From Allosphingosinicella vermicomposti (GTDB taxonomy: Bacteria; Pseudomonadota; Alphaproteobacteria; Sphingomonadales; Sphingomonadaceae): a stretch of DNA of 64,000 nt. The DNA lies in the NCBI RefSeq assembly GCF_003012815.1, contig NZ_PXYJ01000004.1, forward strand, positions 1 through 64,000. Reading direction: 5' to 3'. Positions 12,603 to 45,661 of the stretch are shown piece after piece. A program made the position numbers and the translations under genes. The first letter of the stretch is position 1, and each line of letters starts with the position of its first letter. Under the pieces are notes generated by a model. It searched no databases. It was not told the DNA's origin and was given only the letters and a program-made list of their open reading frames with translations.

Positions 12603-13106
12603 ATGTCAAAAGCTAAGGCAATTTGTGAGCGCGCTCGGCGACAGGTTCGCGAGCAATTCGATTTTGTTTCCTTAGAAGATGCTCAGTTTGTCTGGAACCA
12701 TGAGCCAGATGGGTCAGGAAAATGGCTAGAAGAAGCGCTTGTCGTAGTTCCGAAGGGAGCAATGGGTACGGATGTCCACGAACTTAGCAGTTCCACTGGA
12801 GGAGACTCAGAAGGTTGGCCGGATGCACCTTATAACAACCCGGGATTCATCTTTGGGCAGCTACTTTTCCACGAGTGGACATCGAAAGCCGAGCAAGTCG
12901 AAGCAATTGCCGAATTTGCAAAAATCAAAGAGCTTGGCTGGGCCCGAGAAATCCTGCGAGGGATCGCAACGGATGTGGGTGCCTTCTACCACGATGACGA
13001 TAATACTGTTTGGTCGGAGATGCGCTGCATAACGGACGTCGAGAATTTTCGGAACGAAATCCTCTTTCAGTTGGAACAACACGCTGAAAAAGAGAATGAG
13101 GAATGA
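12603..13106 (+). CDS. Orphan low-GC hypothetical protein within the propionate module
   Basis: A 167-aa protein of unknown function, or 169 aa if the ATG at 12597 is used. It is soluble and acidic, with recognisable stretches WNHEPDGSGKWLEEAL, DAPYNNPGFIFGQLLFHEW and ITDVENFRNEILFQLEQ. It has no family match that I recognise. Its codon use is clearly different from its neighbours, with many A/T third positions (GCA, AAA, GAA, ATT, TTA). It nevertheless fits tightly, starting 12 bp after pccB and ending in a four-base overlap with mce. This suggests an acquired gene now translated with the module. AAGGGA lies upstream of both start candidates. Confidence 0.75.
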   Translation: MSKAKAICERARRQVREQFDFVSLEDAQFVWNHEPDGSGKWLEEALVVVPKGAMGTDVHELSSSTGGDSEGWPDAPYNNPGFIFGQLLFHEWTSKAEQVEAIAEFAKIKELGWAREILRGIATDVGAFYHDDDNTVWSEMRCITDVENFRNEILFQLEQHAEKENEE

Positions 13107-13522
13107 ACCTCGGCCGTCTGAACCATGTCGGGGTCGCGACCCCGTCCATCGAAAAGAGCATCCCGATCTATCGCGACCTGCTCGGTGCGACGACGATCCA
13201 TGAAGCGTTCGATTTGCCCGCGCAGGGCGTTCGGGTGTGTTTCGTCGATACGCCGAACAGCCAGATCGAATTGATCGAGCCGCTGGGCGAAACCTCGCCG
13301 ATCCTGAAGTTTCTGGAGAAGAACCCGCTCGGCGGGCAGCATCATGTCTGCTTCGAAGTGCCGGACATTCATGCCGCCAAGGCCGAGATGGAGGCCAAGG
13401 GTGCCAAAGTGCTTGGCGAGCCGCGCATCGGGGCGCATGGCACGCCGGTGATCTTCGTGCATCCCAAGGACATGGGCGGGATGCTGGTGGAATTGATGGA
13501 GACGCCGCGTGAAGGGCATTGA
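13103..13522 (+). CDS. mce: Methylmalonyl-CoA epimerase
   Basis: A 139-aa vicinal-oxygen-chelate fold enzyme that interconverts (S)- and (R)-methylmalonyl-CoA, the step between the carboxylase and the mutase. Visible metal-ligand motifs are NHVGVATP (His8), GGQHHVCFEV (His) and the C-terminal GGMLVELME (Glu). Length matches the family (about 135-145 aa). The ATG overlaps the stop of the orphan gene by four bases (ATGA), so translation is likely coupled. Confidence 0.95.
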   Translation: MNLGRLNHVGVATPSIEKSIPIYRDLLGATTIHEAFDLPAQGVRVCFVDTPNSQIELIEPLGETSPILKFLEKNPLGGQHHVCFEVPDIHAAKAEMEAKGAKVLGEPRIGAHGTPVIFVHPKDMGGMLVELMETPREGH

Positions 13523-13528
13523 GCCAAG

Positions 13529-13643
13529 CTCCCTCTCCCCTTGGGAGAGGGTTGGGGTGAGGGTGGTCGGGCTTTCCGGAACCGGACACCCTCACCCTCC
13601 CATGCTGGCGCATGGGCCCCTCCCTCTCCCGACGGGAGAGGGT
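13529..13643. repeat. CCCTCTCCC-type palindromic repeat
   Basis: Same element type as at 1651-1773, with outer CCCTCTCCC/GGGAGAGGG hairpins and a central GGGTGAGGGT/ACCCTCACCC pairing. Its right end, GGGAGAGGG at about 13634-13642, lies three bases before the GTG start of the mutase and appears to provide its ribosome binding site. Confidence 0.8.
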
Positions 13644-13645
13644 TT

Positions 13646-15895
13646 GTGAGCAACAAACCCACGCGCGCCGATTGGGAGGCGCTGGCCGCCAAGGAAGTGA
13701 AGGGGCGCGATCTTACCTGGCAGACGCCGGAAGGAATCGCCGTGAAGCCGCTTTACACGGCGGAGGATGTCGAGGGCATCGACCCCGGCCTGCCCGGCTT
13801 CGCGCCATTCACGCGCGGTGTGCGGGCCAGCATGTATGCGGGCCGCCCGTGGACGATCCGCCAATATGCAGGCTTCTCGACTGCCGAGGAATCGAACGCT
13901 TTCTATCGCCGCAACCTTGCCGCGGGGCAGAAGGGGCTTTCGGTCGCCTTCGATCTTGCCACGCACCGGGGCTATGACAGCGATCACCCGCGCGTCGTCG
14001 GCGATGTCGGCAAGGCCGGCGTCGCGATCGACACGATCGACGATATGAAGATCCTGTTCGACGGCATTCCGCTCGATCAAATGTCCGTCAGCATGACGAT
14101 GAACGGCGCGGTGATCCCGATCCTTGCTTTCTACATCGTCGCGGCGGAGGAGCAGGGCGTCCCTCAGGAGAAGCTGGACGGCACGATCCAGAACGACATC
14201 CTGAAGGAGTTCATGGTCCGCAACACCTATATTTACCCGCCTGAGCCCAGCATGCGGATCATTTCGGACATCATCGCCTTCACGTCCGAGAATATGCCGA
14301 AATTCAACTCCATCTCCATCTCCGGCTATCACATGCAGGAGGCGGGGGCGACGCAGGTGCAGGAACTCGCCTTCACCATCGCGGACGGCAAGGAATATGC
14401 GCGCGCAGCGATGGCGACCGGGCTCGATCTCGACAAGTTCGCCGGCCGCCTGTCCTTCTTCTTCGCCATCGGCATGAACTTCTTCATGGAAGTGGCGAAG
14501 CTGCGCGCCGCGCGGAAATTGTGGCATCGCGTGATGACGGATCTCGGCGCCAAGGACGAGCGCTCGAAAATGCTGCGCACCCATTGCCAGACGTCGGGCG
14601 TGTCGCTGACCGAGCAGGACCCGTACAACAACGTCATCCGCACCACGGTGGAGGCTATGGCGGCGGCATTGGGCGGCACGCAGTCGCTTCACACCAATGC
14701 GCTCGACGAAGCCATCGCGCTTCCGACCGATTTCTCCGCCCGCATCGCGCGCAACACGCAGATCGTGCTGCAGGAAGAAACCGGCATCACCAATGTCGTC
14801 GATCCTTTGGGCGGCTCTTATTATGTCGAGGCGCTGACGCAGGAGCTTTACGATCGCGCCTGGGAGATTATCGAGCGCGTCGAGGCCGAAGGCGGCATGG
14901 CGAAGGCCGTGGCGGCAGGCTGGCCCAAGGCGATGATCGAGGAAGCCTCTGCCGCCCGCGCCGCACGCGTCGACAAGGGCGAGGACGTGATCGTCGGCGT
15001 CAACCGCTATCGCCTCGCCGACGAGGCTGAGATCGACATTCTGGATGTCGACAATCACGCCGTGCGCGAGGCGCAGATCCGCCGCATCGAAAAGGTGAAG
15101 GCGGAGCGCGACGAAGCCAGGTGCCAGGCCGCGCTCGATGCTTTGCGCGAAGGCGCGAAACCCTTCACCCCTACCGTTCGGACTGAGCTTGTCGAAGGGC
15201 TGTCCTCCTCTTCAACCGATGCAGAAGGAAAGACAGGGCTTCGACAAGCTCAGCCCGAACGGGATGGGATGCGAACAAACCTGTTGGCTCTTGCGGTGGA
15301 ATGCGCCCGCGCCCGCGCGACGCTCGGCGAGATTTCCTCCGCCATGGAGGATGCATTCGGCCGCTACGGCACCAATCCGCAGCCGGTGAGCGGCATTTAT
15401 GGCGGCGCCTACAGCGAGGACCGCCGCTGGGCGCAGTTGGTCGACGGTGTCGGCTCCGTGGCGCAGCGCAAGGGCCGCAAGCCGCGCATGCTAACCGCCA
15501 AGATGGGCCAGGACGGACATGATCGGGGCGCCAATCTCGTTTCCTCGGTCTTCGGCGATCTCGGTTTCGAGGTGGTGGCAGGTCCCCTCTTCCAGACGCC
15601 GAAGGAAGCCGCCGACCTCGCCATCGAAAAGGATGTGGACGTGGTCGGCGCCTCCAGCCTCGCGGCGGGGCACAAGACCTTGATCCCGGAGTTGATCGGA
15701 CATCTGAAGGATGCGGGCCGCAGTGACATCAAGGTCATTGCAGGTGGCGTCATCCCCGCGCAGGACTATCAGTACCTACGCGATGCCGGAGTGCAGGGCA
15801 TTTTCGGGCCGGGCACCAATCTGGTGGACGCGGCGGGCGAAGTGCTGAAACTGCTGGGTCATAATGTGCCGCCGCAAGGCTTGGCTGATGAGTGA
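13646..15895 (+). CDS. Methylmalonyl-CoA mutase with in-frame palindrome insertion
   Basis: An adenosylcobalamin enzyme converting (R)-methylmalonyl-CoA to succinyl-CoA. The catalytic TIM barrel is recognised by [27 protein letters not shown] and [10 protein letters not shown]. The C-terminal B12 domain has the base-off motif DGHDRG, with the ligand His near residue 625, and the GGVIPAQDY segment. The GTG at 13646 ([10 protein letters not shown]) is chosen because an upstream ATG at 13541 would translate an intergenic palindrome as 35 extra residues. The protein is 749 aa, about 30 more than usual. The excess is residues about 510-539, encoded by a palindromic repeat (15174-15262) in the linker between barrel and B12 domain. 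The frame is intact, so the enzyme is probably functional. Confidence 0.95.
15174..15262. repeat. Palindromic repeat inserted in frame in the mutase gene
   Basis: Arms 15174-15197 and 15239-15262 are complementary over 24 bases with one mismatch (core CTTCGACAAGCTCAG, outer CCGTTCG/CGAACGG). The same family lies in intergenic positions elsewhere in the window. Here it is translated as TELVEG...RQAQPER without breaking the frame. Confidence 0.9.
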
Positions 15896-30478: not shown

Positions 30479-30531
30479 GGATCGAGGCCGGGGAGTGGAA
30501 ACTCTGGCCCTTTTTGTGTACCCCCAAACCC

Positions 30532-30606
30532 CGTTCGTCCCGAGCGTAATCGAGGGGCGCACTTCTGGTTTTCGTTTCAGCCCCTCGACTTCGCTCGGGA
30601 CGAACG
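30532..30606. repeat. Palindromic repeat with CGTTCGTCCCGAGCG ends
   Basis: The 26-bp left arm (30532-30557) pairs with 30581-30606 with a few mismatches (CCCCTCGA...CGGGACGAACG). It belongs to a different repeat family from the CTTCGACAAGC elements. It lies between the convergent glf and GH1/RmlD genes and may terminate both. Confidence 0.85.
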
Positions 30607-30615
30607 AGGTCGGAA

Positions 30616-45089: not shown

Positions 45090-45118
45090 GGGGGCATCTT
45101 GTTCGATCTCCTCCCAAA

Positions 45119-45217
45119 CCGCTAGCCCTGAGCTTTTCGGAGGGGGTGTAAAGAGCATGTTTGGATCGTCATCATCGCGCGTGCCGGATCGTCCTTCGAC
45201 AAGCTCAGGACTAGCGG
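45119..45217. repeat. CCGCTAG...CTAGCGG palindromic repeat (degenerate)
   Basis: The first of two copies in the 251-bp gap between alaC and the GIY-YIG gene. The left arm (CCGCTAGCCCTGAGCTTTTC) is more divergent than the right (CTTCGACAAGCTCAGGACTAGCGG), and the centre is longer than in other copies. Confidence 0.8.
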
Positions 45218-45252
45218 GTTTGGGTTGCTCCGACTGTGCCCGCTCACCACCA

Positions 45253-45328
45253 CCGCTAGGGCTGAGCTTGTCGAAGGGCGTGGGCATCGCATCCTTCACG
45301 CGCCCTTCGACAAGCTCAGGGCTAGCGG
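45253..45328. repeat. CCGCTAG...CTAGCGG palindromic repeat
   Basis: Well-conserved copy with near-perfect arms (CCGCTAGGGCTGAGCTTGTC / GACAAGCTCAGGGCTAGCGG) ending 12 bp before the GIY-YIG start codon. Confidence 0.92.
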
Positions 45329-45340
45329 CTAGGATGGGGA

Positions 45341-45661
45341 ATGGCGTTTTGGGCTTACATGCTGCGTTGTGCGGATGGACATTATTATGTCGGTAGCACG
45401 GACGAACTTGAGCGGCGGGTTGCGCAGCATCAGTCCGGCGAGGTCATGGGTTATACCTACAAGCGCCGACCCGTTCAGCGGGTGTGGAGCGAAACTTTCT
45501 TTACCCGCATTGAAGCCAAGGAAGCGGAACGGCGCATCAAGGGATGGAGCCGGGCGAAGAAGGATGCGTTGATCTCGGGTGATTGGGACCGGGTTTCCCG
45601 GCTGGCACAGAGCCACGCGGATCGTCCTTCGACAGGCTCAGGACTAGCGGTGGAGGGGTGA
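45341..45661 (+). CDS. GIY-YIG nuclease family protein (YhbQ/UPF0213-like)
   Basis: A 106-aa single-domain GIY-YIG protein: AYMLRCADGHYYVGSTDELERRVAQHQSG, then the FFTRIEAKEAERRIKGWSRAKKDALI helix typical of the stand-alone UPF0213/SLX1-like group. The first motif is YML rather than GIY, as in many relatives. The natural fold ends around residue 93. The last 13 residues (DRPSTGSGLAVEG) come from a half copy of the palindrome. Palindromes lie directly upstream too, and the stop overlaps the phaC start by one base. Confidence 0.88.
   Translation: MAFWAYMLRCADGHYYVGSTDELERRVAQHQSGEVMGYTYKRRPVQRVWSETFFTRIEAKEAERRIKGWSRAKKDALISGDWDRVSRLAQSHADRPSTGSGLAVEG
45622..45650. repeat. Half palindromic repeat in the GIY-YIG 3' end
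   Basis: Only the right arm (TCCTTCGACAGGCTCAGGACTAGCGG) is present, without a left partner. It is translated as the C-terminal tail of the nuclease and lies eleven bases before phaC. Confidence 0.8.

Follow-up and report, generated by a model that had tools for sequence, protein, structure and literature searches.

Unlike palindromic repeat elements occupy the same in-frame loop sites in methylmalonyl-CoA mutase and other conserved proteins of sphingomonads

The window analyzed here is a stretch of 64,000 nucleotides of contig NZ_PXYJ01000004.1 from Allosphingosinicella vermicomposti (Sphingomonadaceae). It carries a propionate-type gene group that includes a methylmalonyl-CoA mutase gene (positions 13646..15895, plus strand; 749 amino acids, GTG start). 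The product matches PF01642 and PF02310 and lies above the cut-off of NF006944, with 1200 bits against a curated methylmalonyl-CoA mutase cut-off of 876. A methylmalonyl-CoA epimerase gene (13103-13522; TIGR03081 above its cut-off) lies next to it, and carboxyltransferase-like and biotin-carboxylase-like genes flank the epimerase and mutase genes on both sides. Between the epimerase stop and the mutase start there is a CT/GA-rich palindromic stretch (13530-13643), through which the mutase frame is open, so the start of the mutase could be called too early.

Inside the mutase gene lies a translated two-arm palindromic element of 89 bp (15174..15262, plus strand). An earlier note, made from the sequence alone, had described it as a near-perfect 24-bp inverted repeat that adds about 30 residues in frame between the catalytic barrel and the B12-binding domain, and our analysis confirmed this description. 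The palindrome has a left arm, CCGTTCGGACTGAGCTTGTCGAAG (15174..15197, plus strand), and a right arm that repeats it inverted at 23 of 24 bases (15239..15262, minus strand), i.e., two 24-nt arms with one mismatch. The inner part of 41 nt (15198..15238, plus strand) is predicted by RNA folding to pair partly with itself. The arms can be extended to 37 nt with 86% complementarity, leaving 27 nt between them, and a 101-nt stretch folded as RNA gives one long hairpin (−60.8 kcal/mol; z −8.3). The frame has no stop from the GTG at 13646 until the stop at 15895; the element supplies residues 510-539, which lie after the barrel and ahead of the B12 domain (614-729). Alignments with family mutases and with named homologues place it within a 40-codon stretch (15158..15277, plus strand; residues 505-544) that replaces four residues of most insert-free relatives, which makes 36 additional residues between LREGA (ending at 504) and NLL (starting at 545). 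The match to the human enzyme (8gju) is interrupted at these two positions as well (504 and 545), with five intervening residues.

The element belongs to a family present in many copies. With two mismatches or fewer allowed, the window contains 19 occurrences of a 15-nt core (0.10 expected from shuffles), and a single pattern finds 53 strict two-arm copies of this type (T1) in the 2.51-Mb source genome, a pattern that misses the mutase copy and others whose inner part is long. From the window and pattern-selected stretches, which hold part of the copies in the genome, we read 78 two-arm copies: 51 T1a (CCGCTAG ends), 24 T1b (CCGTTCG ends; 76-92 bp), and 3 others. The earlier note had assigned the mutase copy to the same family as the intergenic copies. 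The multi-copy family stands, with the refinement that the mutase copy is T1b (24/78) and most copies read elsewhere in the genome are T1a (51/78). An ungapped comparison of the mutase copy with the copy at contig C1:59583 (L231) of the same genome shows 91% identity. By eye, T1 arms end in CCGTTCG or CCGCTAG, with CGTC present in some arms only within the variable flank. The dinucleotides flanking an arm are complementary within that arm in 86 of 102 T1a arms and 41 of 48 T1b arms. The outer dinucleotide is never identical on both arms of a T1b copy (0/24), so T1b dimers pair unlike arms. Folding of the mutase copy does not support its arms as separate hairpins, since neither arm by itself folds more stably than shuffles (z 0.3 and −0.6). 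An Rfam scan of window positions 10000-32000 returned no family that accounts for the element, the matches to mir-552 and AaHKsRNA41 being far below their gathering scores. Two T1 palindromes are crowded together with a half copy within about 540 bases of the window (45115-45655). A different two-arm palindrome, of the GAGCGTAATCGAGGGGC type, lies at 30528-30610, near gene ends.

We also mapped copies within genes. Besides the mutase, the same subfamily is found in four other genes of the source genome, encoding RNase R (L235), ValS (L237), SufC (L247), and an Lhr-type helicase (L249); in the T1b-bearing genes, Pfam domains lie on either side of the insert or span it. Thus, 5 of the 24 T1b copies read are in genes, against 0 of the 51 T1a copies read (Fisher p 0.0025). 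Two T1a candidates suggested by codon score were dropped, because one (L220) precedes the likely start codon and the other (window 42568) is at the very beginning of an open frame. Stop codons were likewise rejected as the cause of the absence of T1a from genes, as 45 of the 51 copies have the relevant frame open on one strand or both. The same RNase R and ValS proteins of the source genome also contain peptides of the form TPFASSEVEK, which resemble the second, GAGCGTAATCGAGGGGC-type element (T4).

We then examined the same mutase site across the family. The mutase was found in 181 of 199 family genomes, from which 110 genes were taken, favoring high-scoring matches; one (L090 from G118, with one stop and no readable linker) was dropped, leaving 109. 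The stretch from LDALREGA to ALAV measures 19 or 20 residues in 66 of them, 23 in 12, and 43-98 in 31. Because high-scoring matches, and hence insert-bearers, were favored, 31/109 is not an unbiased share, the floor being 31/181. In the set of named homologues, which overlaps the family set (L154 and G044, for instance, are the same genome), 8 of 45 (L126-L170) have a long stretch; the insert-bearers include Sphingomonas soli, S. yabuuchiae NS355, Hephaestia mangrovi, and Sphingorhabdus soli. The 35 lower-ranked homologues, whose titles name no sphingomonad (L171-L205), all have 19-20 residues. The comparison suggested by the earlier note therefore bears out the segment as an insert: homologues without a long insert, 78 of the 109 family genes included, have only 19-23 residues. 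In 12 mutases, the 23-residue stretch (e.g., L060, L071, and L084) has extra residues, SIEN, SIET, or SIDN, that resemble those just after many inserts and are possibly a footprint.

All 31 inserts are at the same place, and 29 contain parts of palindromic elements. According to labels given by eye from the DNA, 12 are T2 (CCTCCCC...GGGGAGG), 7 T1 inward, 3 T1 outward, 3 T3, 1 T4, and 1 T5; a further one looks like T2 with T1 nested in its left part (L042, by eye), and 3 have no palindromic type (L032, L036, and L037), although L037 keeps one T1 arm. Whole inserts span 90-255 nt, and 27 of the 28 typed ones fold better than dinucleotide shuffles (z ≤ −2.7), the exception being the T1 insert L031. 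T1, T2, and T3 align well within type but together no better than shuffles, while T4 against T1 and T5 against T2 are slightly above shuffles. We therefore claim at least three clearly unlike groups at this one site. Two of the 31 inserts, L032 and L036, show no palindrome (folding z 0.9 and −0.9). At the linker, L032, L036, L152 (Qipengyuania), and L158 (uncultured Erythrobacter) have in common a conserved segment (GRDExGxPLxPS, about 32 residues) that is not palindromic; it may be an old settled insert or may be unrelated. Repeats can confuse assembly, and the earlier note had allowed for an assembly error. However, this position carries in-frame inserts in many separate assemblies, including several that consist of a single contig (e.g., G053, G091, and G026), and in named strains, so that an artefact of assembly or annotation is very unlikely, to the point of being negligible.

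Two possible scenarios may explain why unlike elements share a site: the loop may tolerate whatever lands there, or the site may be a hotspot at the DNA level, where shared machinery prefers a base context or new hairpins enter or adjoin old ones. Offsets within a type are narrow, as a hotspot would predict. Measured from the Gly-Ala codons, T2 begins 6 nt past them in 10 of 16 measured cases, T3 at 14 nt in 3 of 3, and T1 inward at 4 nt in 3 of 4; offsets were measured for 27 of 38 inserts, six being unmeasurable by script and five belonging to types without a rule, and the named insert L147 was put under T2 automatically. The nested appearance of L042 also fits a hotspot, as does the absence of T1a from genes although its frames are often open. 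Yet unlike elements enter the same loops at different bases, T2 itself is also found at 9, 10, 12, and 15 nt, equal offsets may be explained by shared ancestry, and no target duplication was seen in the copies inspected by eye. Taken together, a DNA-level hotspot seems to us unlikely.

To follow the history of the site, we used a quick maximum-likelihood tree of the 109 mutases, built with the linker columns removed and without bootstrap, in which several forks are open. At least 16 changes of presence or absence are required on this tree, and at least 27 when type is counted as well; the count does not separate gains from losses, and exchange of genes between lineages may add noise to it. Gain is the simpler reading, because homologues outside the group lack the insert. 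Type also differs between close relatives: the sister mutases of the source genome (T1) and G053 (T2) are 92% identical, G002 (T3) neighbors G096 (no insert), and G168 (T1) lies near G107 and G021 (no insert). Alternatively, a single insertion in the family ancestor could have diverged, been overwritten by other elements, or been lost. The question that the cited part of PMC3767692 leaves undecided for Rickettsia RPE-4, -6, and -7 allows such a history, and T2 inserts with the same offset do occur in distant genera. Gene exchange is also possible, mutases of the same genus falling apart on the tree, and T4/T1 and T5/T2 are slightly more alike than shuffles. Against this, a stretch of 19-20 residues is found in the 35 lower-ranked named homologues and in 66 family genes, so a single insertion would need many precise losses; T1, T2, and T3 have no detectable common sequence; and the mutase copy of the source genome is nearer to another copy of its own genome (91%) than to the two other outward T1 mutase copies (84% and 64%). 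A single ancient insertion is therefore already disfavored, and we consider it improbable.

The pattern extends to other proteins. Breaks in matches to insert-free queries, a count that misses inserts bridged by the alignment, occur in SufC at about one residue in 9 of 118 genomes and in ValS at site 1 in 24 of 116 and site 2 in 8 of 116; in RNase R, the source genome (G000), G081, and G007 break at the same residue. All of the SufC (9/9) and ValS (24/24 at site 1, 8/8 at site 2) breaks, when read as DNA, were judged by eye to be elements, one site-1 insert (L285) having one arm only. RNase R inserts were read as DNA in G000 and G081 (L235 and L271), and G007 is known by its break only. A script found a single open frame across both flanks in 8 of 8 SufC stretches fetched, 22 of 23 at ValS site 1, and 6 of 7 at site 2; the stretches L270 and L264 stop short of the right-hand flank. 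These sites hold the same element types as the mutase, and some more, at the same loop. For example, the RNase R of G081 carries a T2 element where the source genome carries T1b.

We compared the reading frames of 62 coding stretches (the set being taken without L272-L285), assigning frames from phase and peptides. T1 arms are present in 23 of the 62, and the forward arm is read in the E-[P/L]-V-E frame in 24 of 24 cases, even though that arm offers another open frame; three different readings of the reverse arm occur (13, 7, and 2), and T2 is always in one frame (16/16). Two copies were worked through as examples: the T2 copy uses its most hydrophilic frame, and the T1b copy the most hydrophilic of those that are open. 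The frame bias suggests that selection acts on the protein in favor of a harmless peptide, though shared ancestry lowers the independence of the cases. In an AlphaFold model built from 29 aligned sequences (mean pLDDT 74, pTM 0.80), residues 508-542 have pLDDT below 50 and lie between helices 490-504 and 546-555. The low confidence supports, but does not prove, that the loop is disordered, because eight other stretches of the model are also below 50 and the alignment is shallow.

One may also ask whether the insert is kept for a use, such as an mRNA hairpin that slows ribosomes between protein parts or a flexible linker that aids movement of the B12 part. The very stable hairpin (z −8.3) between two folded parts would suit such a role, and the mutase linker has the largest insert share among the sites examined, but the sample favored insert-bearers. 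On the other hand, 78 of the 109 relatives read manage without the insert, the inserts differ in both sequence and length, two are non-palindromic and a third keeps one T1 arm, and the SufC insert lies within a single ATPase domain rather than between domains. We regard retention for a use as very improbable.

The presence of elements elsewhere in a genome is associated with the state of the mutase site. With kinship ignored, at least one strict T1 pair is present in 20 of 31 genomes with a mutase insert against 17 of 78 without (p 4e-5), and in 9 of 11 genomes with a T1 mutase insert against 28 of 98 others (p 0.0009), a count that can include the mutase copy itself (as it does in G044). SufC inserts accompany mutase inserts (7/20 against 1/50; p 0.0004, kinship ignored), with a weak trend for ValS site 2 (4/20 against 3/50; p 0.10, kinship ignored). 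The Y1 transposase is the classical mobilizer of REPs. We found no match to PF01797 in the source genome (99.97% complete) and matches in 21 of 119 family genomes; the controls, E. coli and Caulobacter, do match. A Y1 transposase was accordingly rejected as the mover: the source genome has no match to it, and G108 is, by eye, the sole genome with a match among the seven sampled ones that have at least 12 strict T1 pairs. A bolder proposal is that conserved proteins of sphingomonads have a small fixed set of landing loops, to which unlike palindromic families are steered by one shared hairpin-recognizing machinery other than a Y1 transposase, so that the conserved trait would be the landing site and not the element; we find this rather doubtful.

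Palindromic repeats inside proteins are best known from Rickettsia, as a curiosity. The likeness to Rickettsia drawn in the earlier note is borne out at the level of behavior: by analogy, the element appears to work like the Rickettsia palindromic elements (RPEs), having entered pre-existing genes, the mutase and four others of the source genome, with the frame intact. As related in the cited part of PMC3767692, RPEs (Ogata and others 2000) are palindromes of 100-150 bp in many copies, some of them within genes whose frame is intact, and a gene may have different RPE groups at nearby positions from one species to another; in that part, the authors leave undecided whether this reflects hotspots or one old insertion. 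Compared by description only, and with the same part of that source, our case differs in host group and in the use of a single site by unlike elements across a bacterial family in which many relatives are empty. As to length, the T1b copies read measure 76-92 bp and whole mutase inserts 90-255 nt, against 100-150 bp for RPEs.

Other small repeats offer partial parallels. The cited sections of PMC3733652 describe REPs and REP dimers within genes, including those for tRNA synthetases and the tRNA pseudouridine synthase B of Erythrobacter litoralis and Sphingopyxis alaskensis, as well as different REPs at about the same site in recB of two Xanthomonas species; sections 6 and 15 of that paper do not name the mutase. 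The GTAG- and CGTC-tagged REPs described there are likewise found within genes, but their terminal tag was not recognized by eye in T1 arms. REPINs with RAYT transposases, as presented in the cited parts of PMC3116915 and PMC2817692, are likewise non-autonomous, with two inverted arms, a short middle, and many copies. We found the same architecture in the 78 two-arm copies read, 75 of which are T1a or T1b. In contrast to REPINs with RAYTs, the source genome is without a Y1_Tnp match. A single arm of the mutase copy gives no fold better than shuffles, though the dinucleotides that flank T1 arms are mostly complementary within the arm. ERIC and other enterobacterial repeat units (PMC2759123, cited part) are likewise small and mobile, and their open frames are found joined to those of protein genes, but their sequences and hosts are others, and recurrent filling of one site by unlike elements is not described in that part. 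The coding palindromes of Nematomorpha mitochondria (PMC6649704, cited part) are likewise long inverted repeats within protein genes, but they are mitochondrial and, as presented there, apparently form no dispersed mobile family at shared loop sites. In open-licence literature, no title or abstract opening among the matches listed concerns a palindromic insert in methylmalonyl-CoA mutase. In-gene RPEs and REPs are the precedents, and what stands out in the present case is scale: unlike elements at the same loops of the same proteins across lineages.

The explanation that we favor, with a probability of about two in three, is that these are non-autonomous, REPIN-like elements that survive where an in-frame hydrophilic loop is tolerated. 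Sphingomonad genomes carry several unlike groups of such elements, and a member of one group would have entered, in frame, the loop between the last barrel helix of the mutase and its B12-binding part. Copies would land widely, and selection would purge most hits in genes. Those kept would be copies whose frame is open and whose peptide is hydrophilic and disordered, in a host loop able to tolerate some 24-79 extra residues; the tolerant places would be the mutase linker, two ValS loops, one SufC loop, and one RNase R loop. Each lineage would thus replenish these sites with elements that it carries itself. We infer the manner of insertion, and suppose that the insert is nearly neutral and that the protein is made and active with its loop. 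Tolerance alone does not account for the presence of T1b in genes (5/24) and not of T1a (0/51), because the relevant frame is open in 45 of the 51 T1a copies, nor need it give offsets as narrow as those of T2 (10/16) and T3 (3/3). A further point against it, judging from the sequences, is a possible relationship of T4 to T1 and of T5 to T2.

Overall, our results suggest that a few tolerant loops of conserved proteins repeatedly serve as landing places for mobile repeats. They carry a warning for annotation, since such loops in ValS, SufC, and the mutase are repeat DNA and not lineage-specific domains. The same sites offer a way to settle the question raised for Rickettsia in the cited part of PMC3767692, namely whether a hotspot or a diverged old insertion is at work. 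Finally, sites that are recurrently filled in some lineages and empty in others amount to a replicated natural experiment on how proteins tolerate about 30 extra residues.
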